Source of the DNA: a virus
Direction: 5' to 3' (one strand)
Virus record (IMG/VR): IMGVR_UViG_3300047382_000013
Span: 1-26,393 of that record
DNA length: 26,393 nt
The notes under the pieces were generated by a model. That model saw only the letters and a program-made list of their open reading frames with translations, was not told the DNA's origin and searched no databases. Shown here one piece after another: positions 1 to 23,470 of this stretch. The first letter of the stretch is position 1; every line of letters starts with the position of its first letter. The position numbers and the translations under genes were made by a program.

Positions 1-3000
1 TGTACATACCCGCTACACGCATCCAACCTTCTTGAGTAAGCCTAGGGGCAGTCTCTAGTACCGCACCACCATTTGTTTGTTGTGTTATATACAACGCTTC
101 TCGAGCAGCAAATTCACGAAGTTTTGCAGTTGACGTTTTGGGGTCTACAAATTCACCATCAAACTCACTAAAGTATTTCTTCCCCGCTTTGGCTCTATCT
201 GCCATCTGCTTACGCACTAGGTTGTATGTAGCTATAAGTGTAGATTGGCGGTTAAATCTTTCCGCAGCGTTAAAGAATATGGCGGAGCCATGAGTGATTT
301 TATCTAACAAGTTACTCTTTTCATTTACACCTAACTCATCCATGAATGACATGGAGTATAGTTGTCCGTTAGCGCTCGCTTCTTTAATTAGGGGTATAAG
401 ATCGTTTAGTTGCTGTATTCTTGCCGCCGCCTGTTCCTTACTTATAGCCGTGTCTTGTATTTTCTTTATCTCAGAAGGCTTCAATGTAAACACGGAATCG
501 TAGCCTGTGCCTTCTTGGTCAAAGTAATCTTTTATGTTAGCGTTGCCACCCAACATACTACCCGCAGAAGTGAACGCATCTATAGAATCTGATAACCCAA
601 ATCTACCACTAAGGAATGGTACTATCACTAGTGGTATTTGTGACAAGTTAACAACAGCAGACGACACGTTAAAACCTAGAGTGTATAGGAAGGCAACCTG
701 ATTGAAGTTCTTTAGCACTGCTTCTTTGGTTTTATCCTGCGCACCCGTTCTAGCGAACTTACCCCTTGCTAGCAATACATCTTTTAGTTCTGTAACGTCC
801 TCGGGTATAGCGTTCGCTTTCTTATCAATTTGATCTTCTATCGCCTTAATCTTAGCGGAGCTTTTTATCTTGGCAGTCTGTATAGCTAGGCTAGAACCTT
901 TAGTCTCCAGTGCGTACCCTGCATCATGAATGTAACCTATGGTCTTTTTACGTCTTCTAAATGCTTTCGCAAAAGATGTTTCTGGTAACTTGTCTATGTA
1001 CAGCTTTATGATTTCTTCTTGTACACTGTTACTTACATTGGCTTTGCCTAGTATACCTAACACTTCATTAGTGAAGGAACTACTAGGGGCATTATCAAAC
1101 CGCTTACCACTTACGTCACCTTTAAACGATTGTATAGAGTCTTGATCTACGTCTTTGTCATCTTTTAAATCGTTGGCATAGGCATCTCGCTCTGCCTTAC
1201 TAGCAAACATCAAGAATATTTGTTCTTTTGAGTCATCAAGTTGCACATCAAAAGATAACTTGTAATCACCTTGACGTACTAGGGGGAAGTAAACATCCAA
1301 CGCGCCACTTGCCAGTAGTCTGTTTTCTAGTTTTTTCTTGATAGAGTTAGCAGCTGCTTTCTCGTCTCCCACCATAGTATCAATCTGCGTGTTAATTGCA
1401 GACAGTAGGTCTTTATACATTTCTTTGTAGGTGTTTCGCATAGCAGAGAACAACGCTTTGCCTTCAGCATCCAACGAATTCCAGTCTTTACGCTGTGCTT
1501 TCCATACAGCTAACTTCTCGCCAGAGTAAGCGGTCTCAGGCTTTGTCGGATCTACTTGGTATATAGTTGCGCCATACTTGCGGTTATAGATAACACGGTC
1601 TAAAGTTGCCTTACCCTTTTTGTTCTTGAACGCCCACTTTTTGTATCTATTTTTAATCTTTTCTAGTTTGGCTTCGGCATCCATCTGCAAGCCACGCTGT
1701 TGGGTTATCGCCTTATCCAGTTGTAGACCTAAAGAACCGAACCCAGCTGCCCTAGCTAAGTCACCTATAGCCTGCCCGCCATGCAATTCATAGAACTTAG
1801 TTTTAACTACTTTGCCCGCATCCGCTAGGAGCGTAATTGCCTTCGTTGCCCAACTACTGTCAGCTATGTCACCTTTATACTTATCTGTAGCTTTCTTAAC
1901 CTCAACAGTAAGATCTAATATCTCTCTAGGTGTGCGAGCCATAGCTATTCTATCATCACCAACCCGATCTAAGTTAGTGGTTACTAGTGCCATAGTTAAG
2001 CCGTCTATGTTATCCATATCAAGACGCTCGATAGGCTTAGTGCTAAGTCCGACTAGCGCTCGTAGTCTGTTACTTATAGCATTAAATACTAAACGCAGTA
2101 CGGGTATGTTCTTACCATTAACATCTAGTCTTGCTAGTTCTCTCCTAAACTTGTCGTTAGACATTACTTCAGCTACAAACTCTTTTACATTCTCAGCCCC
2201 GTAAGCACCCCGTAGCGAACCCTTAACGGACTCAAATACTTTATTTAGCTGTATGGTAGCCGGGAGGAGCTTGTTGTCTAAACCAGAATTAGTTACCACG
2301 TGCGCTACCTCGTGGAGCAACGCGTGTCCTGTTAGCGGTATGTCAGAGTTATACGATACAGTGTTATTACCCACGTCTAGCTGGCCTTGCTTAACTCTAC
2401 CATCTACTACACCACCTAGCTGCTCAGTAGTACGCATGTCTACTTTGGCATCGCCTAGATTGTTTGCCATAGCTCTTGCTACGCTAGCAGGTTGTCCAGA
2501 TAGTGTCTTAGCGAAGTCTAGTATCGCACCTTTTAAGTCGCCCTTCTCAATAAGTTTTAGGGTGGTTGCAGGTACAAAGCCTTCTAATGACGCTATGTTT
2601 TTAGCATCTATCTTTAGATTCTTACGGTCAAGGTCTCGGAAGTACTTACCGCTTTCGTATTCTTTAGCATCTTCTATTATTTGCTCTTTGGTAGCATTCT
2701 CAAAGTATTCTGCAACACGTTTACTAGCTCCAGTAGACCCACCCGCTTCTTCCGCTTTGCGCAGGGCACCAATAATTTGCTTATCCGTTAGGCCTTTAAA
2801 CCCGGGTTTAACCATTACTGGCTTGCCATCAGCACCCGTTTTATATTTTGGTTTTGTAGCCTTAACCTTAGCTACTACTTCAGCTGTTTTGGTTTCTTTA
2901 TAAGATTTCTTTTTCTTTTTAGTTTTCTTTTGTCTGCTATTTTCTTTTCTAGCGTCTAAGTTTTTCTCTGCTTGCTCTACTTCTTTTTGCTCAGACTCTG

Positions 3001-5380
3001 CTTTTCGCTTAGTAGCTTTGGCCTTTGACGTGGCTTCTACTAGACGCGCTTCGTTATCTTTAGGGTTCTGAGATGTTTGAGCAGTTTGTAGTAGGCTATC
3101 AAAAGTAGATTGCTTAGTTAGGTCTAAGTCTTTCCTAGCCATAGAATCTTTAAACGATATTTCAGCTAATTCTTTCTCGTCTTTCTTTGGTTTAGCTTTT
3201 GCTTTTGGTTTGGCTTCTGGCTCAGTTACTACTTCTACCTTAGCATCTTTAACGTCAGCTGCTTTTTCCTGTATGGCATCTATTTGTTCAGTTGGCTGTT
3301 CAGCAGCTACGGGAGTTTCACTTACCGCGTCTTTCACAAACTCATTATACTCAGGAGTATCTTCTTTTAGCCCCTGCTCTTTTGCTTTTTTCGCAGCTGC
3401 CTCTTCTGCATTTGCTACGCGCCTGACTTGTGCAGCTGCTTCTTTTTGTGTTGCTTGTTCAGTTTTAGCTGTACCCTCTATGGCCTGTACAGCTTGAGGG
3501 CTTAGATTTTTATTGGCCCAGTCTATTACTACCTCTCCAATGTTTACGGTCTTACCTGAAGCACCCAAGTCTTTTATTAGTTGTTCATTACCAGTGTAGT
3601 TTAGTTGTCTTGTTAGGGGCGTTTTTTCTCCAAATGCCTGTTCTAGTTCTAAAGTGCCTCTATCTTTTTCGTCAGGCTTACTCCCCGCTTTCTGTATTAT
3701 TTTGGCCGTTGGGTTTATCTTGTCGTTCATAGCCGCGTATATTGCTTGCTGCGGGCTAGAGAAAAAAGACATGTAGGTAGCTACTACTTCTTGGACAGCA
3801 GGGGATGTGTCTGCGGACGCAGCTTTTTTAGCTATGGCTGCTAATTTAGTTTTATCAGCCTTGGAAGATAGTTCTTTTGCAAACTTTTTGTAGGGCGCAC
3901 TAAAATAGCTGAACTTTTTTGCCACGGGGTTAAACGTAGGAATTACTGACTTTCTTTCTTCCGTAACCGCACTAGCTGCTTTCTCAGCATCTTTTCTAGT
4001 AATAAGTCTTTCTAGCTCAGCATACTTAGACTCGGGCATCGTTTTCTTAGCGAACGCTAGGCCGGCTTTCTTATCCTCGGCGGTTTGTAGTACATCATAT
4101 ACTCTTTGTACTATTGGAGAGACTGACTCTCCCTCTCGTCCAGCAGGTCTTCCAGTGTCACGCTCACTATCATCCAGTCTTCCCTGCTCAGGTCTTCCAG
4201 ACTCTTCGGCACTCTCAGCACGCTCGTCTCCCACGACTCCTGCACTACTAGGAACGCTGTCTCCAGTTGTTTCTGTGTCAGGTGTTCCAGTAACTTGCTC
4301 TCTAACATCGCCTTTCTCCTTAGCATCAGCTTCTTCTATTTCTAGTATAGCCTCGAGCTGCTCTTCTGTCGATTCTACCGCTTCTACTTTTGGTTTTTCT
4401 TTCGGGCTTACTTCTTCTGTAGGCTCTTCCGTTACAGTTTCTTCTTGAGTACCTTCTGTAGCTTCGTCTTCCTTATCGGGTATCGTGTCATCTACAACGG
4501 TGTCGGCACGTAGGTTTTTCCTATTAAGCATATCTGCTATGCCCTGCACTATTGCACCTGCACCACCACCGATAGCTCCTTCTTCTGCTACACCCATCTC
4601 AAACATAACTTGTTCTGGATTGTAGCCCGCTTCGTTTAGGTTTTGTAAGATAGCAGCTGTTGCTTCCTGCGTGCCTTCAGATACCCCAGTGGCAGCCATA
4701 CGCTGTAGTCTATCTCTGATACCAGTAATGGTCTTTGGTGTAACCTTACCAGATAATTTTTCTATGAAGTCAGGTAGGCCGGGAATGTCTAAGTTCTTAG
4801 CGAGTCTACCTAGGGGTAGAAGTTCTAGCGTACCAATAGCAGCACCACGTAAGCTAGCTGCGTTTCTTTCTTCTTCACTAGCGCCATACGCCCTAGCACG
4901 TTCTGACGCTTCACCAGCGCCTGCGCCAAGAGCTAGTATACCGGCAGCAGGTAACGCTGCTTTCCCCAATAGTGCCGTACTAGCAAATGCACCAAGAGAA
5001 CCTACGCCAGATGATAATTTATAGGTGAGGGAGTCTTTGTCACCGCCTTCAGGAGTGAAGTCTTCTTGTAAGTCTAATATCTTTCTTCTAGCTTTTAGCT
5101 CATTATCTTCTTCAAGTACCGTAGCAGCACCTAGCGCAGCCGTAGCAGTAGTCCCAACAAAACCTGAACCAAGACCTGTAGCTACGTTCTCTAAGAACCC
5201 AACTTCTTCGTCAGTCTTTTCTTTCTTGGCCGAGCCGTCTTCCTCAGTAGGAACAGCAGGCAACCCGATAATAGATCGCCTTTTCTTCTCAAACATACCC
5301 CTGAGTATTTGTGCAGACTCAGCGTCCCCTTTGGCTTCCGCCTTATTTATAGCGGTGTATATATCGTCTAAACTAGGCAT
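1..5380 (-). CDS. Giant polyvalent-type virion protein with zincin motif (partial, at least 1,793 aa)
   Basis: Open from ATG 5378-5380 to the left edge, so the C-terminus is missing. Order by residue: Gly/Ala-rich hydrophobic stretches (about 69-89 and 122-156); GEASERARAYGASEEERNAA (156-175) and EGTQEATAAILQNL (235-248), an N-terminal pattern I recognise from very large marine phage proteins; an acidic, disordered linker (about 295-415); Lys/Glu-rich coil (about 700-830); KPKYKTGADGKPVM; HEVAH (1023-1027) followed by EFVAE (1067-1071), a HExxH...E zincin signature; then helical regions with GFNVSSAVVNLSQIP and FFNAAERFNRQSTLIA, like the C-terminal parts of LPD38/PLxRFG-type phage proteins. 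It is probably packaged in the capsid and injected. The protease could process virion or host proteins. Family placement is from memory of patterns, not a search. Confidence 0.7.
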   Translation of the reverse strand, partial: MPSLDDIYTAINKAEAKGDAESAQILRGMFEKKRRSIIGLPAVPTEEDGSAKKEKTDEEVGFLENVATGLGSGFVGTTATAALGAATVLEEDNELKARRKILDLQEDFTPEGGDKDSLTYKLSSGVGSLGAFASTALLGKAALPAAGILALGAGAGEASERARAYGASEEERNAASLRGAAIGTLELLPLGRLAKNLDIPGLPDFIEKLSGKVTPKTITGIRDRLQRMAATGVSEGTQEATAAILQNLNEAGYNPEQVMFEMGVAEEGAIGGGAGAIVQGIADMLNRKNLRADTVVDDTIPDKEDEATEGTQEETVTEEPTEEVSPKEKPKVEAVESTEEQLEAILEIEEADAKEKGDVREQVTGTPDTETTGDSVPSSAGVVGDERAESAEESGRPEQGRLDDSERDTGRPAGREGESVSPIVQRVYDVLQTAEDKKAGLAFAKKTMPESKYAELERLITRKDAEKAASAVTEERKSVIPTFNPVAKKFSYFSAPYKKFAKELSSKADKTKLAAIAKKAASADTSPAVQEVVATYMSFFSSPQQAIYAAMNDKINPTAKIIQKAGSKPDEKDRGTLELEQAFGEKTPLTRQLNYTGNEQLIKDLGASGKTVNIGEVVIDWANKNLSPQAVQAIEGTAKTEQATQKEAAAQVRRVANAEEAAAKKAKEQGLKEDTPEYNEFVKDAVSETPVAAEQPTEQIDAIQEKAADVKDAKVEVVTEPEAKPKAKAKPKKDEKELAEISFKDSMARKDLDLTKQSTFDSLLQTAQTSQNPKDNEARLVEATSKAKATKRKAESEQKEVEQAEKNLDARKENSRQKKTKKKKKSYKETKTAEVVAKVKATKPKYKTGADGKPVMVKPGFKGLTDKQIIGALRKAEEAGGSTGASKRVAEYFENATKEQIIEDAKEYESGKYFRDLDRKNLKIDAKNIASLEGFVPATTLKLIEKGDLKGAILDFAKTLSGQPASVARAMANNLGDAKVDMRTTEQLGGVVDGRVKQGQLDVGNNTVSYNSDIPLTGHALLHEVAHVVTNSGLDNKLLPATIQLNKVFESVKGSLRGAYGAENVKEFVAEVMSNDKFRRELARLDVNGKNIPVLRLVFNAISNRLRALVGLSTKPIERLDMDNIDGLTMALVTTNLDRVGDDRIAMARTPREILDLTVEVKKATDKYKGDIADSSWATKAITLLADAGKVVKTKFYELHGGQAIGDLARAAGFGSLGLQLDKAITQQRGLQMDAEAKLEKIKNRYKKWAFKNKKGKATLDRVIYNRKYGATIYQVDPTKPETAYSGEKLAVWKAQRKDWNSLDAEGKALFSAMRNTYKEMYKDLLSAINTQIDTMVGDEKAAANSIKKKLENRLLASGALDVYFPLVRQGDYKLSFDVQLDDSKEQIFLMFASKAERDAYANDLKDDKDVDQDSIQSFKGDVSGKRFDNAPSSSFTNEVLGILGKANVSNSVQEEIIKLYIDKLPETSFAKAFRRRKKTIGYIHDAGYALETKGSSLAIQTAKIKSSAKIKAIEDQIDKKANAIPEDVTELKDVLLARGKFARTGAQDKTKEAVLKNFNQVAFLYTLGFNVSSAVVNLSQIPLVIVPFLSGRFGLSDSIDAFTSAGSMLGGNANIKDYFDQEGTGYDSVFTLKPSEIKKIQDTAISKEQAAARIQQLNDLIPLIKEASANGQLYSMSFMDELGVNEKSNLLDKITHGSAIFFNAAERFNRQSTLIATYNLVRKQMADRAKAGKKYFSEFDGEFVDPKTSTAKLREFAAREALYITQQTNGGAVLETAPRLTQEGWMRVAGMY
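2168..2314 (-). other. HExxH...EFVAE putative zinc metallopeptidase site
   Basis: HALLHEVAHVV places H1023 and H1027 as zinc ligands and E1024 as the catalytic base. E1067 or E1071 in KEFVAEVMSND is a plausible third ligand about 40 residues later. This arrangement resembles the zincin-like peptidase domains of phage polyvalent proteins. The motif is seen directly; activity is inferred. Confidence 0.6.
2814..2861 (-). repeat. 48-bp dispersed repeat, copy in the second giant gene
   Basis: Partner of 6600-6647. It encodes KPKYKTGADGKPVM at about residues 841-856, in a Lys-rich linker before the zincin domain. Confidence 0.8.
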
Positions 5381-5387
5381 AGGGCAG

Positions 5388-5391
5388 CCTT
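5388..5391 (-). promoter_or_regulatory. Ribosome binding site of the second giant gene
   Basis: AAGG lies 7 nt upstream of the ATG at 5378-5380, overlapping the stop region of the 764-aa gene. It supports this start. Confidence 0.45.
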
Positions 5392-7684
5392 ATTGATTCA
5401 TTTGTTTATTAAACGCATCGGTTTCTGCCGCGCTATAGTCGGTCTTGTCGCCATCATCCCCGCCTATCATTCCGTCAATATTAGTAAGTTTCCTCAACCT
5501 ATTTAACGCCGCTATTTGTAGAGACAAGTATAATCTAGCATGCTCGGTAGCTAGTTTAGCTACGGCTACCTTTCTTTCCTCAACGTCAAGGATTTTGTTA
5601 GCCTGTTCCATCTCCTCCACTTGAATTTCGCTTAGAGTCTCAACCAAGTCACTTATAGCCTGTCGGTCGTTACTTTCCCTCGCTATCCTATTGGCTTCCT
5701 CATAGTTGTAGTTCACTTTAGCTCTTATTTTTGCATCAGCTTCTTGGGTTAACTTATCTTGCTGCAGTTCAACATCCTTTTGGTATACAGAAAGGTTATC
5801 TTTTGCTACACCCGCCCGCAATTCCATTGCCTTAGCCACGTCTGTCATGCCCACCTCGTATGCCTTAGCAGCGCGCGCGTCAACTTCTTTCATTAAGTTA
5901 ACTTCGGTATTGGTTGTGGATACAAAATCACCGATACGTTGGTTTATTAGGTTCATATCTTTGTTTTGGCTATCTAATACATTCTGGCGGTATGCCTGAC
6001 CCTTAGCGCCTCTAGTTGCAAATATGTTCGCCATGCGCCGCTTGTACTGGGCGTGGGGGTCGTTTGCTAGTCTTTCTTTTTCTTCCATACGTTGGCTATA
6101 TAAGTCTTTTAGCCCACCTACCCTTTGATCTGTCTCAAATCTACCCGCTAAGCTAATAGCGTCTCGCTCTTTTGCAGGGTCTTGGGATATGCGATCATCT
6201 ACTTTTTTATTGAACGCATCACCTAACTTGTCACTAACTTGTGTCTTACTAGTGTTTGGGTCGGCAGAGAAATCAAACTCCTGAGCTCCACCTATTTGAG
6301 GGCCACCAGCGGCTTCTTTATTGTACTGGTCACGCACAAATGCTTTAGCGTCATCCACAGTGGGGCCATCCTTACTTCCGTACTGCGCGATAGCGTCTCT
6401 ATTAGTATCATCGATCAGTTTTTGATCCACAGATTTCTGATCAGTCTCAGGACGTAATACTCCCGCACCGCCCATGTCAGCCGTAGGAGGTTTAGTGCCA
6501 CCCATAACAGCATCGGCACCATAAGCAAGTCCACCAAGCCCTAACGTAGCACCAGTTAAATTTCCAACATTCGGAGAGGCTGCTTGGCCGGGAGCTGTCA
6601 TTACTGGCTTACCATCCGCACCCATCTTATATTTTGGTTTTGAAGCCGGAGTCCTAGCAAAATCTTTACCCTTTGCTAGTTTTTGTTTGGCATAATTGAT
6701 GACCTTTGGCCCATACTTTTTGCCTGCGTTAGCGATAATTTGTTTAACTGCCCCAAGACCACCCAACATCATAGCCTGATCTACAATAGCCATACCGCCA
6801 CGTTCATCAATTTGCTTTGTTATAAGGTCTCCGTGTGCAGGACTGCCTGCCCCACCACCGAATGGACTACCCATATTGTAGTTTTTGTGTTGTTTTAATT
6901 TTTCTCTATCCGCATCAGAAACCCCTGCCGCAGAAGTGTCTTCGCCTTTTCTATCTTCAGGGAACACGTAACCATCATCAGCGTAAGCACCTGACCTAAT
7001 TTTATCTGTAGGGCCAGTTTTCAAACCAGCATCCACAAGGACTTTTTTTACAGCATCTTTTTCTTCTGGGCTACTTTGCGCCGTAAGAGTTTGCATTATT
7101 TTTTGTAGTTTGGCTTGGTACTCTGGCGAACTTGAGTCCGTGGTTCCGCCAAGCGCTTGTATTTGTCTTTGCGCAATAGCTACAGCAGCGTTAACATCTC
7201 CACCGTTTGCATACCCAACAATACCACCACTAGCCATCATAGGACGAGGAGCACCACCCATTGCACTAGGCATGCCACCCATCATAGGACGAGGAGCACC
7301 ACCCATTGCACTAGGCATGCCACCCATTGGAGGACGAGGAGCACCACCCATTGGAGGCTTACCACCACCCATAGCGCCCATAATGCCACCCTGCTGCGGT
7401 TTTTTCTGTTGCGGTTGCTGTGCGCGTTGCGCTAGTATACCGCCAGTCTGATTGGCTATTTCTTTCTGCGTCAAACCAAGTAACTTCTGCTCTTGTTGTT
7501 CCGCTATAGTCCCACCAGTCTGCTCTTGCTTCATCGCCATATCTCGAGCAGCAGCTTGTTTCTCTTCAAGTAGTTTGCGAGTAGCTAAAACTTCAATTAG
7601 GTCGGGGCCAACACCTTGGTTTAGTGGTTTATTACTAGCCGCTAAAGTATCTTTCTTATCGTTAACTAATTGGTTTATGTTCAT
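5390..7684 (-). CDS. Putative virion/internal protein, Gly-Met-Pro-rich with helical C-terminus (764 aa)
   Basis: Not assigned to a named family, although its N-terminal style (helix LLEEKQAAARDMAMKQ, then TIAEQQEQKLLGLTQKEIANQ) is familiar from marine phage virion genes. Residues of about 98-152 are a Gly/Met/Pro-rich low-complexity tract built on GGAPRPMMGGMPSAM, followed by ASGGIVGYANGG (151-162), a motif related to those in the 589-aa protein. A short segment KPKYKMGADGKPVM (about 347-360) recurs in the giant gene downstream. Residues of about 500-740 are predominantly charged and helical, likely coiled coil. No signal peptide or catalytic motif is seen. Overlapping the 589-aa gene by 4 nt and preceding the second giant gene by 9 nt, it probably works with them as an internal or ejected virion protein. 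That is inference from position. Confidence 0.55.
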   Translation of the reverse strand: MNINQLVNDKKDTLAASNKPLNQGVGPDLIEVLATRKLLEEKQAAARDMAMKQEQTGGTIAEQQEQKLLGLTQKEIANQTGGILAQRAQQPQQKKPQQGGIMGAMGGGKPPMGGAPRPPMGGMPSAMGGAPRPMMGGMPSAMGGAPRPMMASGGIVGYANGGDVNAAVAIAQRQIQALGGTTDSSSPEYQAKLQKIMQTLTAQSSPEEKDAVKKVLVDAGLKTGPTDKIRSGAYADDGYVFPEDRKGEDTSAAGVSDADREKLKQHKNYNMGSPFGGGAGSPAHGDLITKQIDERGGMAIVDQAMMLGGLGAVKQIIANAGKKYGPKVINYAKQKLAKGKDFARTPASKPKYKMGADGKPVMTAPGQAASPNVGNLTGATLGLGGLAYGADAVMGGTKPPTADMGGAGVLRPETDQKSVDQKLIDDTNRDAIAQYGSKDGPTVDDAKAFVRDQYNKEAAGGPQIGGAQEFDFSADPNTSKTQVSDKLGDAFNKKVDDRISQDPAKERDAISLAGRFETDQRVGGLKDLYSQRMEEKERLANDPHAQYKRRMANIFATRGAKGQAYRQNVLDSQNKDMNLINQRIGDFVSTTNTEVNLMKEVDARAAKAYEVGMTDVAKAMELRAGVAKDNLSVYQKDVELQQDKLTQEADAKIRAKVNYNYEEANRIARESNDRQAISDLVETLSEIQVEEMEQANKILDVEERKVAVAKLATEHARLYLSLQIAALNRLRKLTNIDGMIGGDDGDKTDYSAAETDAFNKQMNQ
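6600..6647 (-). repeat. 48-bp dispersed repeat, copy in the 764-aa gene
   Basis: Matches 2814-2861 at about 43 of 48 positions and in the same reading frame. It encodes KPKYKMGADGKPVM. Confidence 0.8.
7238..7356 (-). repeat. 45-bp tandem repeat (about 2.6 units) in the 764-aa gene
   Basis: The sequence AGGACGAGGAGCACCACCCA (plus strand) recurs at 7241, 7286 and 7331, a period of 45 bp or 15 codons. The first two units are identical and the third is shortened. They encode MGGAPRPMMGGMPSA. Confidence 0.9.
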
Positions 7685-9450: not shown

Positions 9451-12400
9451 TTACCCGTCTCCAAGAATCCGTAGGATCTCATCTGTTTTAGCTTTTACTT
9501 TACCGCCAGCGGCTAAGCGTTGCTGTTGTGTATTTGAACTTAGTTGTGTATTGGCCCCCAAAGTTCCTCCATAAGGATTAACCTTGCTATAGGGGTTAGC
9601 TGCCGTAGTCGCGGCGTATGGGTTGTCTCGCCCGTAAAAACCTTCCTGTTGAGGAGTAGCAAAAATGCTGTCTCCCCCATAAACATCATACTCGTACTGA
9701 ATAACCGCAGGGTCATTTGGAGTCTCTACATCCACTATCCGGCCCGGTTTAAATATCTGGCTTATTCGCTTTTCCTGTTCCTCTTTTTCTGCTTCCGCCT
9801 GCTTAGATTGTTCAGCTTCTGTACGTATTTCAGTACGAATATCTGTATCTTGTTGTGTTAACGCGTCTTGCTTAGCTGCATCACTTTCCGCTTGCTGCTG
9901 CTCTAACGCTTCCTGTTTTTCTAATTCGTACTGTACTTGAGCATCTATAGCAGCTTGATTTTGTGCCGCTATCTCAGCTTCTTTTTCTGCCACGGTCTTG
10001 TACATGCCGGTAGCAGGGTTAAAATCTGCGTCAGGATCAAAGCCATCGTAGTTACCAAGTGTATACGCATTTGTCAACAAAACCAAGTCTTCTTGCGTAA
10101 CTAAATCATCTTGTCCAGTTACGTCATAACGTAATATATTGTCAAACTTTTCTTGTGTTAGCTCTACTGTCCCCAAATACTCAGTTACTAGCGCTATATC
10201 TTCCTCTGTAACTAAGTTAGCTTCTTTACCTAACACCTGAGCGGTAGCGTCTGCCGCATCTTGCTGTTCTGATATTGTGCCTTGTAGTGCCTCTATCTCT
10301 AGGTCTTTGGCTTCTAACTCCGCAGCATTGTCAATATTTAGCTGGGTTATATCCCCAGTTAACTCCTCTATATCGTCTGACAGGTCATCCCTTTCTTTTG
10401 CCAACGCACCTATAGTTTCGTTTCTATCAGATATTGTCTCCCCTGCAGTTAATCCGGTGGCAGCGAGTGCATCTATGCGAGCTTGTAAAGCCTCCTTCTC
10501 GGCGTTCAGCGCTGCAATTTTTCCGTCTTTTTCACCTAACGCCTCCGCATGGGCTGCGTTTAACTGTTCTTTTTCTAAGTTTAGCGCGTCTACTTGTTCT
10601 TGCTTAAAGGTTTCGTACGAACCCTCTAGGTCTTCAATAGACGTATCTCTAAACTCGTCATAACCTTCTTGGGTACTAAACCTAATATCTTCTGGGAACT
10701 CGTCAGCATTATCACCTACCTCATCCCCATCGGTATCAACAGTTTCGGTAACATCTTCTGGGAATGCGTCAGCATTATCCCCAGTGCCATCCCCATCGGT
10801 ATCAACAGTTTCAGTAGCATCTTCTGGGAATGCGTCATCCCGATCATCTACCTCATCACCATCAGTATCTATTAATGCTTTGCGGTCAGCATCTTCTGGG
10901 TAGAAGTCAGCATTGTCACCTACACCATCCTCATCAGTATCTGTAGTTTCAGCGCCATCTTCTGGGAATGCATCGGCATTATCACCAACACCATCACTAT
11001 CTGTATCTACGCTTTCATTAGGATCGTTAGGGAATACATCAGCTTCATCACCTACCTCATCCCCATCTGAGTCAGTAGTTTCAGATCCATCTTCTGGGAA
11101 CGCGTCAGCATTGTCACCAACACCATCACTATCTGAGTCTAAGTATTCAGCAGCATCATTCGGGAATACGTCAGCATTATCACCAATACCATCATTATCT
11201 GAGTCTAAGTATTCAGCAGCATCATTCGGGAATACGTCAGCATTATCACCAGTACCATCATTATCTGAGTCTAAGTATTCAGCAGCATCATTCGGGAATA
11301 CGTCAGCATTATCACCAGTACCATCATTATCTGAGTCTAAGTATTCAGCAGCATCATTCGGGAATACGTCAGCATTATCACCAGTACCATCATTATCTGA
11401 GTCTAAGTATTCAGCAGCATCATTCGGGAATACGTCAGCATTATCACCAGTACCATCATTATCTGAGTCTAAGTATTCAGCAGCATCATTCGGGAATACG
11501 TCAGCATTATCCCCAGTGCCATCATTATCTGAGTCTAAGTATTCAGCAGCATCATTCGGGAATACGTCAGCATTATCCCCAGTGCCATCCCCATCGGTAT
11601 CCACGCTTTCATTAGGATCGTTAGGGGCCCAGTCAGTATTGTCACCTACCTCATCCCCATCTGAGTCAGTAGTTTCAGAGCCATCTTCTGGGAATGCGTC
11701 AGCATTATCCCCAACACCATCACTATCTGTATCTACACTTTCATTAGGATCATTAGGGAATACATCATCAGCATTTCTTACACCGTCTTCATCATCATCT
11801 TGGTCATCTTGGAACTGCTGCTCAGTAGCATAGCGATCATCTTCTGGGTAAGCATCATCCCGATCATCTACCTCATCACCATCAGTATCTATTAATTCTT
11901 GACGTTCTGCATTATCTGGGTAGAAATCGGCATTATCACCAGTACCATCCCCATCAGTGTCAAGTCGTTCTGTTGGGTCTAATGGGAATGCATCTACTTC
12001 ATCGGGAGCGCCATCCCCGTCATCATCAGAATCTCTATTGTCACCAATACCATCATTATCAGTGTCAAGTGTTTCTTCTGGGTCGTATGGAGCGCCATCA
12101 TCTTCGTTAAGTACGCCATCACCATCTATGTCAGGATCTTCATCATTTGGTATGCCATCCCTGTCTCTGTCAAGCGACTTGGTGGGGTCGGTAGGCCAAA
12201 AGTCGAACATGTCGTCAACGCCGTCATTATCATCGTCGTAGTCAGCCTCATCACCTACACCATCATTATCTGAGTCTAAGGTTTCAGCAGCATCTAACGG
12301 GAATGCGTCAGCATTGTCACCAACACCATCACTATCTGAGTCTAAGGTTTCTTCTGCGTTTTCTGGGTAAGCATCATCAGCATTTCTTACACCATCACCA

Positions 12401-15400
12401 TCATTATCTTGGTCATCTTGGAACTGCTGCTCAGTAGTATAGCGATCATCTTCTGGGTAAGCATCATCAACATCTAGTACGCCATCTCTGTCGGAGTCTG
12501 CAAAAGTTAGGGCGTTTAACTCATCGTAGCTGGAAGTATCTAGGTCATCTAGTGCATCTTTTGCCTCATCATCGGTAAGGTCAGGCGAGGTGAAACCGTT
12601 TTCATAAAGTTCACCTTCGGACACAGGTAAGGCTTTTAAATCATCGGTAGGCTTACCTTCTGAATCTAGGGAGAAAGCGGAGTGTGTAGCGGTAATTAGG
12701 TTATCCATTACCTCTGTTGCGCTATCATTGGGTAATAACAGGCCATCTGTTATATTGTCGCCCGACATACCAAAAGCCGTCCGCATAAATAGTAGGCCGT
12801 CGGTTAACGCGTCTATTTTCCCATCTTTATTGAAGTCAAAAAGTTTTTGTACTCTAGGGTCTTCTAAATACTCAATTACTTCTTCCGCGGTGTTCCTAAT
12901 AGAGTTTTCAGTAACAGCATCATCAATTAGATCGTCGCCCGACATATCAAAAGCATACCGCATAACAAGTAGGCCGTCGGTTAACGCATCCACCACACCA
13001 TCGCCGTCTATGTCCGCTATTAGGGAATACTTGCCCAGCCGTTCTGTGTCATTAGCATCAATAAACTCTGCTTCCGTAACATAGCGATCATCTTCTGGAT
13101 AAGCATCATCAGCATCTCTTACACCATCATCATCACTGTCTTGGTCATCTTTGAACTGCTGTTCAGTAGCATAGCTATCATCTTCTGGGTAAGCATCGAG
13201 GTTATCACCTACACCATCATTATCTGTGTCTAATGTTTCAGTAGCATCATTCGGGAATGCGTCTTGATCGTTATAAACACCGTCGCCATCGGTATCGTTA
13301 GGTATGTTGCCTTGGGTCAGCTGCCAGTATTCTGTTAGGGCACTATCTAAATCAACGTCTGTATCCAACGCCATTGCAGCATCTACATCGGCTTCCGAAG
13401 GAACATCGACACCTAACCTAGCGAATGACTCTTTAGCTTCTGACTGCGTTACATACGAGCTATCATCTACCACGTTTAAAACGTCTATATACAAGTCGTT
13501 GGATACGTCTTGAGTTATGCCTAAGTTCGCTAGAGTGTCCTGTACTTGAGTAGCATCACCAGAGTTAATAGCGTCAATCATTAGCGGGCTATTCAATACT
13601 ACATTCGTAATAGGGTTAAAAGACCCCCCATCAGTGTTCCCACCATTTGCTGTGGGAGTACCTATACCATATATTGTCGCCGTAGTACCGAATGCGCCAA
13701 GGGCCGACACTGTAGAATTTAGAGCGATATTGCCCATGTAGTCTCTGTCCTCTACTCCCGCGTTATACAGAGCAGATTCTATGTATGCAGTGGTGCCACC
13801 TTCTTGTACAAACTCGTTTAGAGTCTCTTTTGTAACTACCTGAGCGCCATCAACGAAGCGTTCCCCCAACTCTGTTAATGCTTTTTTGCCGGAAGAAGAT
13901 AATATTTTTGTGTCTAGGGCTTTAGCCCCGGGAATTGTAGACATAAGCAATATAGATATAGACCCTGCACCAACTGCTATTTCACCTGCTTTAGCTTCAG
14001 CGTCTGCGGGAGAATACCCTACTCTTATTAGCTCTGCATAGCTAGTGTCATACGCCTGTGTAAACGCCCCACTATAGGCTTCTGTTACTTCCAAACCCCT
14101 ATTAGTTGCTACAGCTGTGCTTACACCTACGGCCCTAGCTACATCATCAGCCATAGCCAAACCAGCTGTCTTAGTAACTACCTTACCAACACCCAAACTA
14201 GCTACTAGGGTGGCTAGTTCTTGCCCTATTTCCATCCCAATAACTTCTACTAAGAAGACTTTTGGTTTATCTGTTAACTCTCCGTATAGCGCTTCTAACT
14301 TACCGCCCACACCTTCAGCATCTTCTACGGTCTGCCAAAACTCTGCTACGTCTTCTTGATACACTTCGGGTAAATACCCAAAAGACATAGACTCTAACAA
14401 GTTAGCGGTTCTAGAAAAGTCGTTATTCATTACCGAAGCAAAATCTATATCTTTATACGCGTCGGCTATTATTGCGTCTGCGGCAGCATTCGCGTCTTCT
14501 ACTGTACCGCCGGCTAAGATTATTTCTCGCCGTTTCTTCTCAGCGGCTACTTGTGCAGGCATAGTTTCAGCAAACTTACCCAAAGCCCTAACACCTTCAT
14601 TAAATATGTTAGCTGTGCCCGCTGGGAACCTTATTGCCACATTTACAAACGTTTCTAAACCGTCTTGAATAGTTTCAAGCTGCCGGCTATAAAAGGTTAA
14701 ATCTTCTTCTTGCTTAGCGGTGAGAGGGCCCTCAATAGCATTTAATTCGTCTATTTTTCCCTGTGCTTCGTCTATTCCGTCTTGGTAGAAATCTAACGAG
14801 TCTTTGGCTATACGTGCAATCCAAGGTAGCTCAGAATACGGTATACCATCATACCCTTCACGTAGGTCTTGCTCTGCTTTAAAAGCGTCAACCTCGGCAT
14901 TATAATCTTGGAATATCTGTACCTTTTCTTCTTCCGATACACTCATGTCTATGAGCTGGTTATACTCTCTAGTAGTTTCCGCAAGCCACGCTGCTTCTGG
15001 GGATGTAGTTACAGCTTCACTCAAGAACGTCGCATACGCCAGAGGACTAGATTCTTGAAGTGTATTCTTGTCGGTAAATATAGGAGTCTGTATATACTCT
15101 TTTACTAGCGGCTCAGTGCCATCCTCATTAAGCACGTACTTAGCGCCGCCCCCAGCATCATATTGATAGGTTTCAAACTTGCCTGTTTCAGGGTTAAACT
15201 CTGTTCTTCTAAATCCGTCACCACCCCAACCTATGTTTCCTTCGCTGTCCATAGTGTAAGTGATGTTACCCTGCGCTACGTCGTTCATTCTTTGACGTAT
15301 TTCTGCATCAGACATATCGTCGTCGTACAAATTACGGAAAAAGTCTTGTGCTGACCTGTTAACTAAAGTCTCATCTAAAGCAGCCCTTGACCCAAATACT

Positions 15401-18400
15401 GACTCTACTAGTCCATCTCCTTGAGCCTTTAGGGCATCGACACCTAACTGTTCGTCAGATAGACTGGTTTGCTGCTCTAAAAACTCTAACGTTGACATGT
15501 TACTAGGCGTACTTTCGAAGGCCTCACTAAGAAGTTGTAATTGTAGAGTTTTTAGTTCGCTTGGGGTTAACAGGCTTACGTCTACATTACTAGCTGCCAG
15601 CAAACGCGTGGTAATGTTAGATATAGCAGCTTCTGTACGTTCATTGTACTGGCCCGCATTTATGGGTGCGCCATTTTGTATGCCCTCAGCTATATAGTGA
15701 GAAAACGCGTCTTCGTCCGCAGATAGATTATTTGCTAGCCTATACTCAGCCTCGTTAAAGTCTGGAGCTAACTTATTTACCATATCCTTCACAATAGCAG
15801 TCTGGTATGCCTGCACCGCAGGATCAAATTTAGTCGTGGCGGTTAATGTCTCGAGCATCGTGTCATACTCAGTTACCAAAACGCCTTCGTCATACTCTAA
15901 TTGTTTTATTGCATTACTTACACGCACCACTTCTTGGTTGGCTTCAATTAACTGTCTCTCATAGTCCTTGTCCTGTAACAATGCTGCATACGCACGTCGA
16001 TCAGCGTCCGTAGCGTTAGGGCCTTCAGCCGCGGCTTCTAGGTTACTGCGCTGCTGTAATAGAGCGTCTCTTTCTGCAAGGGCAGTTTCCATCTCCCCTC
16101 CTAATACTTCGCCCCTTTCGGGTAATGCGTCTAATTCTTCTCTTTTGGCTACCGCAAGGTCATAGTCGCCAGAAACGTTATCCACGTAGGTCTTAAAATC
16201 TTGCGAGAAAGTGCCCGCTAGAAAACTATCTGTTATGGCCGTTGCCGCTACACCAGTCATAGCCGCTAAAACGCCATCCCCTATGTTAGGGTTATTCATT
16301 AGTATGCCGCTTATAGCACTACGCATACCTGCCGCAAGAACCGGGGCGGTTAATACATCAACTACACTGTTATCTAATTTATCTATTTCTTGGGCTATTA
16401 TTAGCTCGTTAGTAAACGCACGCACTATCGCCGTTTTACCTGCAATAGTCCCGTCATTCCCTAGCACAGATTGCACTAACCCTTGCCTTACTGCTTCCTT
16501 AATAGGCCCATCTAGATTTTGAAAAGAATTATCTAAGTACGTATCTATGTCGTTAGTTAACTTGTCTAGTTGGTTTCTAACTCCTTCTGGTAAGTCTTCA
16601 TACATCAACGAGGCCTTAGCAGCTATAGGAGCCATAACCTGATTAATCGTATCTTCTAGAGGTTGGAGTAATTCTTGGTCAAAGTTTTCTACAATACCTG
16701 AAATATTTAACGCTTCATCTAGTCGCCTTAGAGTACCTTCAAAATCTTCTTCAATGTCACCTAGTATGTCTTTAAATGGAATTTGCTCAACAGCACCTAA
16801 TATGTACTCCCCTAGAGTTCTAATGTCGTCATTAAAAATAAATTCTTCTGCAACGCGCAACATGTTAGATAAGTCGCCTTCTAGACCGCTAAAGAATTGC
16901 TTTAATTTTGCGTTATCACCAATTGAATCGCCTAACCAATCCAATGCCTGCCCTGCCATAGCCTCTTCAAATGTAGCTCCTTTAGCCATATCAGAAACTA
17001 CTTCGTTTATGGCTTCATACTGTGCAGGAGTTATAGCATTAATTACATTATCGGATACACCTAAACTACCAAGTCCATTCTTAACCCACCCATCACCAAA
17101 CTCACTAAGAACGGGCAAGATGGCGCTTTTTATATCCCCGCTACCTGCAGCACGTATTAGCGATATAGTCTGTTTACCGTTTAGTCCAGCTAGCCCGATT
17201 CCAGCCATCTGAATAGCCATGAAATCATTGTACGCCTGAGTGCCCTTCGCAAGCCCTTGTGCGGCTGCCTGTTTTGCTGCTTCGGCTTCACTAACAGGCA
17301 TTGTTATCTTACCGAACTTTTGTAGCGAGAATAACGCCAAGGATGCCCAATCTTCCGCGTGCAAAGTCTGCCCATCTACAACTTTCAATGCAATGTTTGC
17401 GGCTTCTATTTGTAATGCCAAATCTGGACGACCAGCTACAGTAAGAGCTACCTGAATAACCGCTTTTAGCGGGCCTATCTTATCAATAAATTTACTTAGT
17501 GAGCTGGGTTCTTCTTGTAGTTGAACCCACATCATAGTGTAGTCCCCTACCTTACCATCTCCCCCTGATATATCTACGAAATAACCTGCCTTGGTGCCAC
17601 TACTTTGGGGGTAGTCTTGTCCGTCAGTAAACTTACTACGTATATCTTCGTCATTTAAGTGTTGATTCAGTGTCCTAGCGCCATCGTAAAAATACGGAGA
17701 TGCTATTTCGGCCGTATGATTGAATTCCCCAAATATTACGTCATCGTCTCCCGGCATTTTCATGTACAAGCGATCTTTGTCGTAGTTTACGCCAAGATCC
17801 ATATCAAACGATTGTGGTAACTCTATGTAAGAAGCTACTTCGTAGTCTTCTAGCTTATCCATCCACTCCCTATGTTGAAACTCTGATAGCCCTTCGTCTT
17901 TGAAGTTATTAATGTACTCCTTGGTATTCATGGCTTCTAGGTGTCCGATAGCCTGCGCTCTGTAATTCCTTTCTCCGGGTGTCATACCACCGTGTATCGC
18001 CCCTCTCATTATTTCTAATTGCCTAACTTTCCTGTCTTGCATGAAATAAAAGAAACGTTGGTCTGTTTGTACGTCTATGCCACCTAAGTCATCCCAAAGG
18101 TCTCCTAGACGCATAGAAGCACCTAGGTTTACTAATTGCTCCCTATCCCAAGGGGTAGTGCCATCTTCCATAGCACCAAAAGAATTATTTATAGATACCC
18201 TATAACGACTTATCAGAGCTTGCTCCGCGTCAGTAAGAGAGCCGTCTATATAACCGTCTGCCTTGGCTATAACTTTTATTAGTTGTTCTGCCCCCGGAGT
18301 GACTTCTACGCCTGCCCCCGATAAATTAGCCCAGATAGGGGCATTAGTGGGTCTATTGGACAGTAACCAATTTGTAAGTCCTTCTTTTTTAGCTTCTCGT

Positions 18401-21400
18401 TCACTAAGTCGCCCCTGCGACAGAAAATCGCCTTCAAGGTCTAAGTAGTCTACGACTTTCCTGCCGCTAGCGTTTGGTACGTTAGGAGTAAACCCCGGCC
18501 GGCCGTATACGCCGGTATCAGCCATCCAGTTTTTATTTTTTAACCACTGATTTGCCTCGGCTCTGTTTGGGGCTCGCCCATTCGTCTTAACAAAGTGCTC
18601 TCGCCACGTATTAAATTCACTTACTTCGTCTGTGTAGTAAACTTTTTTCCATGAATCGTCTTCTCCACTTACGTTGTCAATCAACTTCCCCATTTCATGC
18701 ATAGAATAAGCGCCGTATATTGCTCGACTATTCTCTAGCACGAAGGTATCTACCATTGCTTGTTCTTCTAAAGACTCTTTTTGCGGGGTACTGTAGTATC
18801 TAGAATCTTCCGGATACGCATCAGCATTATCTCCTATCCTATCTCCATCAGTATCGACAGACTCCTCAGACGAATAAGGAAAAGCGTCGGCATTATCACC
18901 AACACCATCTTTATCCTTATCAGAAGATTCGCTAGGGTCGTTTGGAAACGCATCTATATCGTCGGAATACCCATCGTTGTCGCTGTCGGTTGCGGGGGGG
19001 CCATCATAATCAGTTGGAGTTGAAACAGGATTTTCGACTTCATTTATACGGTAAGCTACCCGATTAGCTTCTTCGGGTATAGTATCTTCAGTTACGAAAA
19101 ATACTGATCTATAAACAGATTCCAACAAAGCCAAGTTAGGCAGGTCATTTTTTAGGCTTTCTTCTAAGTCTAATAGCGCTTGTTCGTCATCTTTTATAGG
19201 AGAAACTCGATCAAACATCTCCTGAAGTTTCTTTTTGTAGGCCTCACCTTGAGGCCCTCCTACTCCTAATCCTGATAACCTAGCATACCGTTCTTCGGGA
19301 GTTTCATTTGCAATTAACGCTTGTCGCTCCGCCTCAGCAGCAGCTTCTGCTTCCGCTTGTTTTTTAGCTTCTTCTAGAGTAACTTCAGCTTCTCGTTCTG
19401 CGACTGCGGAGAATTCATTAAAATACCAATCGTCTGGATATTCTTCTCGTATTAGGTCAGTTACTTGATCTAGCGTTACCTCTATCGCTAGCTTGTCGCT
19501 GAATACCCCAGTGTTATGCCTTGCCTTTAATTTTTGGGCTAAGTCTTTAAACTTTTCTCCCGTTCTACCATAAAACCAATCCCAATAACGCGATGCGTTT
19601 CCAGCATAGTTCCTGTTATAGTCATTTACAAAATCTTGGAGGGTGTTGTAGGTTTTGGTGCCCTGCCATTCCCTTTTTTGTTTATCCCTTGCTTCTTGCA
19701 ATGCAGCAGCTTCAAGCCGTTCTTGTTCTGCTTTGGCCGCTGCTGCCGCTTCTTCCGCTGCCTTTATGGCAGTCTCATCATCTGCTTTCTTGGCCGCTGC
19801 CGCCGCTGCCTCCGCCGCCGCTATTTCCGCTGCAAGTTTATCTTCTTTGTGTTGTACTACATCAGAATACCTAGTGTAATGATCGTCATCAGGAAAGTGG
19901 GCATCTAGCGCATCTAATGCTTGTTCGTAAGTTATATTAGTGGCTATACCCTTACCATTGTTATGCGCAGATCTTAGTTTTCCTGATAACGCATATAGCT
20001 TAGTACCTACCTGTCCAGAAAACCAATCCCAATATTTAGAGACTTGGCCAACATGATTCCTGTTGTAGTAATTTACAAAATCTTGGAAGGTGTTAAATTG
20101 GGTTTTGCCTTCTTTACGTGCAGCCTCTTCTGCTGCCGCTGCTGCCGCAGCCTCCGCTTCTTCCTCTGCTTTTCTCTTGGCTTCATCCGCCGCAGCCGCA
20201 GCCGCTGCTTCTTCTGCTGCTTTCTTAGCTGCTGCCGCTTCTTCTTCTGCTTTCTTAGCTGCCGCTGCCGCTGCCGCCGCTCTTTCTTCTGCTGCTTTCT
20301 TGTCCGCTGCCTCCGCCGCTGCTGCTGCCGCTGCCGCTTCTTCTGCTGCTTTCTTAGCCGCTGCTTCTTCCGCTGCTTTCTTAGCCGCTGCCGCTGCTGC
20401 TTCTTCCGCTGCTTTTTTCCTAGCTGCTTCCGCCGCTGCTTCTGCCTTAATAGTGTCCTTATGATTCGCTACATCAGAATATCTATCGTAATAATCGTCA
20501 TCAAAAAAGTGGTCATCTAGCACGTCCAGTGCTTGTTCGTAAGTTACATTAGTGGCTATACCCTTACCATTGTTATGCGCAGATCTTAGTTTTCCTGATA
20601 ACGTATATAGCTTAGTACCTACCTGTCCAGAAAACCAATCCCAATATTTAGAGACTTGGCCAACATGATTCCTGTTGTAGTAATTTACAAAATCTTGGAA
20701 GGTGTTAAATTGGGTTTTGCCTTCTTTACGCGCCGCTAGTTCTGCCGCTGCCGCTGCCGCTGCTTCTTCCTCTGCTTTCTTGGCCGCTGCCGCCGCAGCC
20801 GCCGCTTTTATGGCATCATCTGCTGCTTTCTTAGCTGCTGCTTCTTCCGCTGCTTTCTTAGCTGCCGCTGCCGCTGCTTCTTCCGCTGCTTTCTTAGCTG
20901 CTGCTTCTTCCGCTGCTTTCTTAGCTGCTGCCGCTTCTTCTTCTGCTTTCTTAGCTGCCGCTGCTGCTGCCGCCGCTGCTTCTTCCGCTGCCTTCTTAGC
21001 TGCTGCTGCTTCTGCCGCTGCTTTCCTAGCAGCTTCTTCTGCCTGTAACCTAGCAAAGGCCTCTGCTTCTTCTTTTGCTTTCTTAGCCGCTGCCGCTGCT
21101 GCCGCTGCCGCTGCTTCTTCCGCTGCTTTTTTCCTAGCTGCTTCCGCCGCTGCTTCTTCCGCTGCTTTCTTAGCCGCTGCTTCTTCCGCTGCCTTCTTAG
21201 CTGCTGCTGCTGCTGCTTCTTCCGCTGCTTTCTTAGCCGCTGCTTCTTCCGCTGCTTTCTTAGCCGCCGCAGCCGCTGCCGCTGCTGCCGCTTCTTCCGC
21301 TGCTTTTTTCCTAGCTGCTTCCGCTGCTATATCGTCCCTAACCTTTTTTACTTCTGAATATCTAACATAATAGTTATCATTAGGGAAGTGCTCAGCAACC

Positions 21401-21836: not shown

Positions 21837-23470
21837 ATTGTGTTCTCCGTAAAACCATAATACCCAAATATTATGGTGTTAATATTAGTTATGCTAGATA
21901 CATGGTCAAACATTATTCTTAGATTACTCTCAGTCGTTTCCCTACCAAAAGAGTACGTCAGAGGTATCATACGCACTTGATAACTAGACGGGGGCAAACT
22001 TATATATTGACTATAGAAATCAGGCACTGAAATGTAAGTCCCGGCACCGACAAAACCTGACTTACTGTAAAACACTTCTACACCATCAAATACAGTAGCT
22101 GCATCGGGGAACTTTGATATTCTGACGTATGTATAACCAAAATAATAATAATATTCAGTTATGGTGGCTGCATTAGCGCCCGCTGCAGTAGTGCCAAACT
22201 TCCCCATACCCGAAGCAAGTTTATCTGTAATATCCCCACTTACCTTATACCAAGCGTTATATGTAGAGGGAACGCTTACAAACTCCCATGTTCCAACAGA
22301 AACTCCGGTGCTACTTTTACTTTGCATTTGCATGAGAATTTTAAACTGGTGGTTGATTTTGCTTGACGATGACGAAGTATTACCAATCCTCACCTTCAGG
22401 GTAAGTGTTAGGCTTTGAGTAGCCTCATTACCAGCCGGAGGGGCAGGAATAGAAAATTGTCGTATAGTAACAGCCGCGGTAGTGGTTATATTCATCGAGG
22501 TATTAGAGAAAAAACTATGCTTACTGCTAAGCGGGGCGCTTGGTAATAAATTACCGGCTACGTTGACATTAGCATTAAGATTAATGGTCTTAGTGGTTGT
22601 CGTCGATGTTGGGCCAATGTTAATTGTTGTTGTGCCACCATTATGGTATCCAGTGCCTATATCAACTACTTTAGTGGAGCCGCCAGAATTTATACCTGTA
22701 CTGTAATTATCGTCAAACGAGCCAGTTTTACCACTCCCAATCTCGGCTCCTCTTGTTTCTATATCCCCTGTAGTCGCATATATATTTCCACTAGTTGTGC
22801 CAACATCTCCATTTGTAGTTCCAATGCCTGAAGACGTAGATATTACCCCTGTACCGGTAACAAAATTGCCGTTTAGGTTTAAAGTACCACCTAACTGTGG
22901 AGTAGTATCTTCTACGACGTTTTGTAGATATGTAGCAGATAACTTAACGGGTGTAACTGCACCATCTGCTATCTGGGCTGTAGCTATAGTTCCGCTTAAA
23001 CTAGATGTAGGGTAATTAGTAGCATCACTTAGGTCAAATGCAGGGGTAGCATCTGTGCCCCCAAGAGACAATTGAACACCACCATAAGAGACAGTGGAAT
23101 TAGATAGTTTTGCATTTGCTATACTCCCAGCTAGTTGCGCGTTCGTAATCGTGCCTACAAGGCTAGATGTAGGATACCCAGTAGCATCTGACAGGTTAAA
23201 CGCAGGGGTAGCATCAGAGCCACCTAATGACACAGTTACGCCACCAAAAGACACAGTAGAGTTTTCTAACTTACTATTAGGTATAGAACCATCAATTATG
23301 TCACTGGTATCAAATTGTAACGCTTTCGCTACTGCACCGTCTAAGTTTGCAAAGTAATACCTAAGTACGGCATTATGCTGACTCTGCCACTGCATATTGT
23401 ACTCTGCTGGCGGATTCGGCAACGCGGGGGCATGAAATATCTTTTGCGAGTCTCTTATTTTTGTAGCCAT
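21833..23470 (-). CDS. Putative tail fibre / receptor-binding protein
   Basis: A 545-aa predicted tail fibre. Residues 1-55 form an N-terminal segment (FHAPALPNPPAEYNMQW, then RYYFANLDGAVAKAL) similar to virion-anchoring ends of marine phage fibres. Residues of about 58-175 hold two ~60-aa repeats with LxNSTVSxGGVxxSLGGxDATPAF and DATxYPTSSLxGTI, typical of cyanophage-like fibres. A third, divergent start (IADGAVTPVKLS) leads to VEDTTPQLGGTLNLNGNFV. The shaft at about 195-290 is Gly/Thr/Ser-rich, as in trimeric beta-structured shafts. The C-terminal ~230 residues are beta-rich and aromatic (YYYYFGYTYVRI, YSQYISLPP) and are probably the receptor-binding tip. There is no visible chaperone domain or autocleavage motif. 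It overlaps the 75-aa gene by 4 nt, so that small gene could be a partner or fibre chaperone. Confidence 0.75.
   Translation of the reverse strand: MATKIRDSQKIFHAPALPNPPAEYNMQWQSQHNAVLRYYFANLDGAVAKALQFDTSDIIDGSIPNSKLENSTVSFGGVTVSLGGSDATPAFNLSDATGYPTSSLVGTITNAQLAGSIANAKLSNSTVSYGGVQLSLGGTDATPAFDLSDATNYPTSSLSGTIATAQIADGAVTPVKLSATYLQNVVEDTTPQLGGTLNLNGNFVTGTGVISTSSGIGTTNGDVGTTSGNIYATTGDIETRGAEIGSGKTGSFDDNYSTGINSGGSTKVVDIGTGYHNGGTTTINIGPTSTTTTKTINLNANVNVAGNLLPSAPLSSKHSFFSNTSMNITTTAAVTIRQFSIPAPPAGNEATQSLTLTLKVRIGNTSSSSSKINHQFKILMQMQSKSSTGVSVGTWEFVSVPSTYNAWYKVSGDITDKLASGMGKFGTTAAGANAATITEYYYYFGYTYVRISKFPDAATVFDGVEVFYSKSGFVGAGTYISVPDFYSQYISLPPSSYQVRMIPLTYSFGRETTESNLRIMFDHVSSITNINTIIFGYYGFTENTI
21843..21848 (-). 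promoter_or_regulatory. Ribosome binding site of the 75-aa gene
   Basis: GGAGAA lies 6 nt before the ATG at 21834-21836, within the last codons of the tail-fibre gene. It is a strong site and argues that this small gene is translated. Confidence 0.55.
22940..23300 (-). repeat. Two ~180-bp imperfect repeats in the tail-fibre shaft
   Basis: Each unit encodes NSTVSxGGV, SLGGxDATPAF, LSDATxYPTSSLxGTI and then an AQLA/AQIA-type segment. The units are in frame and diverged, so they look like an old structural repeat and not a recent duplication. Confidence 0.7.

Follow-up and report, generated by a model that had tools for sequence, protein, structure and literature searches.

Several described systems resemble parts of the locus considered here. 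The palindromic elements of Rickettsia occur as in-frame inserts in unrelated genes, carry a long palindrome and are present in many copies. Block changes attributed to template switching at quasi-palindromes are reported in yeast coding genes (PMC8604942); the process was first suggested in phages, for which the same source credits Ripley 1982. Delivery during invasion is assumed for polyvalent proteins of the kind considered here, which often carry zincin-like peptidases with a proposed role in processing them (PMC5512222). Among the titles listed from the literature on short intragenomic copying in phages none was on point, and no claim is made that such events are unreported. The analysis concerns two adjacent genes, gene 1 and gene 2 (Table 1), in a virus record of 26,393 bases, the whole of which served as the window. 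These genes share a short in-frame segment that is probably an ectopic copy, placed in gene 1 and taken from a gene-2 allele of the type found in one close relative, L003.

Like the Rickettsia elements, the segment adds one short in-frame peptide to proteins that are otherwise unrelated. Unlike them, it is found in two copies in the record, which is possibly a fragment, and has no significant fold, both regions being unremarkable in this respect (z of -0.81 for 81 nt of the gene-1 region folded as DNA and +1.96 for 71 nt of the gene-2 region folded as RNA). A mobile element of the Rickettsia type was considered and rejected on these two counts, the number of copies and the want of a long hairpin. 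The yeast template-switch mutations (PMC8604942) provide a parallel at one junction of the segment, where a multi-base block change would complete a perfect inverted repeat in coding sequence. Unlike those mutations, the block change here would accompany a 54-nt insertion from another gene, and the intermediate is not observed.

The protein of gene 1 shares with large polyvalent and DarB-like proteins its very large size, its position beside virion-type genes, an HExxH motif and DarB-like similarity in its C-terminal part. This part matches 16 phage records at E 1e-3 or better, with 22-26% identity across 15-26% of the protein; five of these are annotated as DarB-like antirestriction proteins, other annotations being DNA methylase, Snf2 helicase and hypothetical protein, and the best match (E 2e-12) is to a protein annotated as hypothetical. 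One difference is that gene 1 itself has no family match in Pfam or PHROG; the Pfam family LPD39 (large polyvalent protein associated domain 39) is matched at E 9.8e-13 by a distant syntenic homologue in the record L012. Judged by these similarities, gene 1 encodes a DarB-like large polyvalent protein. Its counterpart in the close relative L005 has 2095 residues. "Giant gene," the label given to it in an earlier, sequence-only reading of this DNA, is a loose one, as the 1793 residues run to the window edge and the largest gene here encodes 4049. The HExxH motif is kept in all four aligned gene-1 homologues (HEVAH here and in L005, HEMTH in L012 and HETTH in L014), and the zincin-like domain to which the motif would belong is a putative one, the model of the region having a mean pLDDT of 43. 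For gene 2, there is no family match in PHROG or Pfam and no match in the "phages" collection.

As regards possible packaging of the gene-1 protein in the virion and its injection, the surrounding genes of the record include matches to a virion structural PHROG and to an endolysin PHROG. The virion structural match is to a gene of 716 residues (23470-25620), which also has similarity to proteins in 127 phage records; 98 of these carry the name of a Pseudomonas phage, and Roseobacter and Pelagibacter phages match at 33-35% identity. The 4049-residue gene (9451-21600, minus strand) contains 66-nt tandem repeats encoding DTDGDGVGDNADAFP-type units, which we take to be thrombospondin-3/calcium-binding-like, together with long Ala/Lys/Glu repeats, four QDFVNxYNRN-type repeats and stretches that are presumably dockerin-like. 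Gene 2 has a tandem array of 45-nt units at 7234-7389 (GGMPSAMGGAPRPMM repeats), two of them identical and two diverged, which varies between relatives.

Table 1. Features of the two genes and of the segment that they share (positions in the window).
Feature	Positions	Strand	Remarks
Gene 1, DarB-like large polyvalent protein, 1793 aa	2..5380	-	Cut by window edge; recipient gene
HEVAH, zincin-like metallopeptidase motif, gene 1 residues 1023-1027	2300..2314	-	
16-bp perfect palindrome TTAAACCCGGGTTTAA	2796..2811	.	Coding-strand 3' end of insert; sole perfect palindrome of at least 14 bp in window
In-frame insert, 20 codons (842-861) where L005 has 2, net 54 nt	2798..2857	-	DNA alignment with L005
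49-nt shared segment, gene-1 copy	2813..2861	-	Encodes (A)TKPKYKTGADGKPVM; identity 97.96% with gene 2 of L003 and 89.8% with own gene 2
Gene 2, 764 aa	5390..7684	-	Putative donor, as its L003-type allele
Near-identical block with L003 gene 2, gene nt about 640-1379	6306..7045	-	Flanks strongly divergent
Nested patch, gene nt 1028-1155, with 11 of 12 block differences from L003	6530..6657	-	Shared segment at centre
49-nt shared segment, gene-2 copy	6599..6647	-	Encodes (A)SKPKYKMGADGKPVM; kept in 2/2 relatives covering site

The shared in-frame segment is real and beyond chance. The sequence-only reading had reported about 43 identical positions out of 48 in two adjacent genes with differing surroundings, and the exact count bears this out: 43 of the 48 bases are identical between 2814-2861 and 6600-6647, both copies being in frame on the minus strand, while codon shuffling of gene 2, done 60 times, gave best matches to gene 1 over 48 nt of at most 35 (mean 30.4, sd 1.2). 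As peptides, the gene-1 copy reads ATKPKYKTGADGKPVMVKPG and the gene-2 copy ASKPKYKMGADGKPVMTAPG; of the five bases that differ, three are synonymous changes. BLAST, with six loci as the database, stretches the match to 49 nt (E 4e-11). A cross-gene search of the six loci on the forward strand, run with the low-complexity filter, at E 1e-3 or better and with all unlabelled regions treated as a single class, found this as the sole segment common to differently labelled genes. The flanks of the two copies are unrelated except for CCCGG, which follows the segment at the same offset in both genes.

Six relatives were found by six protein scans of viral_contigs, all of them listed without a completeness value. 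Three are close (L003, IMGVR_UViG_3300017751_000173; L005, IMGVR_UViG_3300025070_000289; L010, IMGVR_UViG_3300047382_000062) and three are distant (L012, L013 and L014), the open frames of L012 and L013 being alike over their common stretch. With part of gene 1 as the query, a single protein scan of genome_contigs found no relatives. As far as the contigs reach, the gene order is kept, with a large gene, a gene of about 600 residues, gene 2 and gene 1, the third of these being split or cut in L012 and L014. In gene 2, the two relatives with coverage there (L003 and L005) both have KPKYKMGADGKPVMTAPGQAASP letter for letter and the flanks with it, and it is the gene-2 surroundings as a whole, not the motif alone, that are kept. 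The contig of L010 stops six residues short of the shared segment in gene 2 (L010:10923), either by chance or because assembly broke off at a segment that is variable or repeated.

At the gene-1 site, the only relative providing coverage is L005, as the L003 contig ends before it. There the protein, about 80% identical in the remainder, reads ...AEVVAKVKA-KH-KGL..., compared with ...AEVVAKVKA-TKPKYKTGADGKPVMVKPGF-KGL... here. Absence from relatives, which the sequence-only reading would have taken to suggest a chance recombination remnant, is thus found for gene 1 (segment in none of one relative, L005) and not for gene 2 (in two of two, L003 and L005). The gene-1 length difference from L005 amounts to a single gap of 54 nt, exactly 18 codons, with alignable sequence on both sides, and the insert lies in a lysine-rich linker about 160 residues before HEVAH. 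Because L005 alone covers this site, gain here and loss in L005 are not firmly separable by such a comparison. Along 2-5380 (minus strand), identity between gene 1 and its L005 counterpart switches blockwise, from 90-100% to about 42-80%, and on this alignment gene 1 is also strongly mosaic.

Which gene-2 allele was the source can be approached from the bases themselves. Over the 48 nt from GCT to ATG, the gene-1 copy agrees with gene 2 of L003 at 47 positions and with that of L005 at 45, compared with 43 for the gene 2 of its own genome, and the single base that separates it from L003 is non-synonymous. Two bases, in codons ACA and AAA, are common to the gene-1 copy and L003 and different in both other gene-2 copies; in addition, own gene 2 carries two private bases in the segment. 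The gene-1 copy is therefore unlikely to come from the present own gene-2 allele, and the donor would be either an L003-type allele of a co-infecting phage or own gene 2 at a time when it was L003-like, before a later overwriting. Such overwriting is plausible because 11 of the 12 differences from L003 cluster around the motif in a near-identical block, which itself is probably a recent allele exchange. Among the 11 differing sites of this nested patch, the present phage agrees with L005 at seven and L003 does at three, all differing at one. When 12 differences were placed uniformly in the 740-nt block, none of 20,000 simulations put 11 of them in a 128-nt window, a result to be read with the patch having been noticed and the block limits set after looking, and with uniform placement assuming even constraint. 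The comparison of gene 2 with L003 at 6306-7045 (minus strand) also shows sharp mosaic boundaries within one gene.

The scenario most consistent with these observations is that gene 1 of this phage received an in-frame copy of about 49-60 nt from a gene-2 allele of the L003 type, the direction being presumably from gene 2 to gene 1. The copying may have proceeded by template switching at short homologies, for example at the GGC that donor and recipient have in common at the 5' junction. Beyond that point the donor-like run continues through ATG, after which six bases differ (ACAGCT in the donor, GTTAAA in the insert) before CCCGG follows; the insert ends with GTTTAAAGGC, where L005 reads CATAAAGGC. 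A second switch, of the quasi-palindrome type, may have rewritten the 6-nt block, and the product would have been tolerated in the linker with no function needed. By the reverse route, an old gene-1 copy could have converted gene 2 in L003, giving the L003-like match.

The proposed second switch draws on the palindrome at the junction, which was noticed after the fact. Of the six changed bases, five sit in its left arm, where they pair with the right one, and this is what a template switch between imperfect palindrome arms would leave. This step, nearly as likely as not, is rated below the copying itself. Thirty triplet shuffles gave means of 1.6 palindromes of at least 14 bp and 0.3 of at least 16 bp per window, so that the palindrome is notable for its place, not for its existence. 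Counts of palindromes of at least 14 bp in L003, L005, L010, L012 and L014 were 0, 0, 1, 0 and 1, respectively, with none of 16.

A different history, in which the segment is ancestral in both genes, L005 deleted it cleanly from gene 1 and gene conversion kept the copies alike, is unlikely. Absence from gene 1 is seen in only one relative, and the patch around the gene-2 segment suggests that short tracts are exchanged there, both of which such a history could accommodate. The gene-1 copy, however, is closest to the gene 2 of another phage and not to its own, so that the copies do not show conversion going on inside this genome. Moreover, loose motif expressions found the segment in neither gene 1 nor gene 2 of L012, L013 and L014, where the site itself aligns unreliably. 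Four near matches arose in these distant records. Three were not counted as the motif, namely GSDGKPM, which L012 has in the large gene upstream of gene 2, KPRY in a stop-broken frame of L012, and RRDGTPVQV, from the start of gene 1 in L014. The fourth, YKKTEKGEPV, falls near the gene-1 site in the alignment of L014 and was taken for a misalignment, because it is directly followed by NRNLSP, similar to an NKNLSP that the protein here has some 220 residues upstream of the insert. Of the sequence-only reading's proposal of a recombination seam from a shared ancestor, the recombination is supported in the form of an ectopic copy, while the common ancestry is not.

Decidedly unlikely is that the peptide serves as a docking or cleavage signal, cut for instance by the HExxH peptidase of gene 1, which gene 1 gained and selection has kept. 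The idea of a peptide processed in this way accords with the proposal, in the portion of the source used, that polyvalent proteins are processed by their own zincin-like peptidases (PMC5512222), but L005 keeps HEVAH with a gene 1 that is without the segment, and the distant L012 and L014 keep both gene order and HExxH with no such motif seen in either gene. All three gene-2 proteins that cover the segment carry it letter for letter; against this, the whole neighbourhood is conserved there. The share of synonymous differences between the two copies in this genome may also suggest constraint on the peptide, but the gene-1 copy and L003 differ by a single non-synonymous base, which says nothing about selection. 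Both AlphaFold models place two short strands flanking the GADGK turn, at low confidence (mean pLDDT of 43 and 45, poor).

The distribution of the motif bears on the same question. A degenerate pattern search of the whole record, which may be a fragment, found exactly two places and no third copy, and a genome-wide virion tag was rejected on that count; at up to three mismatches, the pattern occurs once each in two of the six relatives' records and in none of the other four. Among the same proteins of close relatives, the segment is thus a feature of gene 2 (two of two) and not of gene 1 (none of one, a single relative). The common processing or docking tag that the sequence-only reading had envisaged, and for which it had suggested a search of the remaining genome and of relatives, does not emerge from these results. 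A similar peptide, KPKYKMGPDGKPVAIT, does end an unrelated protein in another record, L007, which argues for a tag; this protein of 168 residues (L007:2443-2946, minus strand) closes with a Pro/Thr-rich linker and that peptide, and has no relative in the phages collection. The L007 contig is presumably T4-like.

In viral_contigs, KPKYK-x-G-x-DGKPV is found in three records, two of which are the relatives, and the looser KP[HKNQRS]YK form is absent from genome_contigs. The shorter YK-x-G-x-DGKPV occurs in 20 viral_contigs records, which are those of L003 and L005, L007 and 17 others sorted by eye into about 10 unrelated protein contexts; a linker-like Lys/Pro-rich lead-in is present in two contexts (L007 and L017). 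From this spread over unrelated viral proteins, the short core resembles a generic turn sequence, as is expected of a common turn and counter to a dedicated tag. A 32-residue peptide found nothing in "phages" at E 10. A further reading, very unlikely, treats the segment as a portable peptide module that a co-injected polyvalent protein recently captured from a co-infecting relative, and that possibly serves the gene 2 protein as a signal for docking or processing.

An assembly artefact of the metagenomic contig is scarcely credible, for although this record and its relatives are IMG/VR contigs, that of L010 stopping just before the segment, no exact word longer than 25 nt is shared with any of three gene-2 alleles, and none longer than 16 nt with own gene 2, most assemblers end with words longer than 25 nt, and an artefact would require two in-frame junctions.

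By itself, the short ectopic copy from gene 2 into gene 1 is an ordinary recombination event, ordinary in kind and instructive in detail. It provides a clean case of a very short in-frame segment moved between unrelated phage genes, with the likely donor allele in another phage and with a palindrome at the junction that hints at template switching. Should events of this kind prove common, short "shared motifs" of unrelated phage proteins would be explained without function. If the portable module were true, short template-switched copying of linker peptides between unrelated virion genes would be a route for phages to retarget injected proteins.
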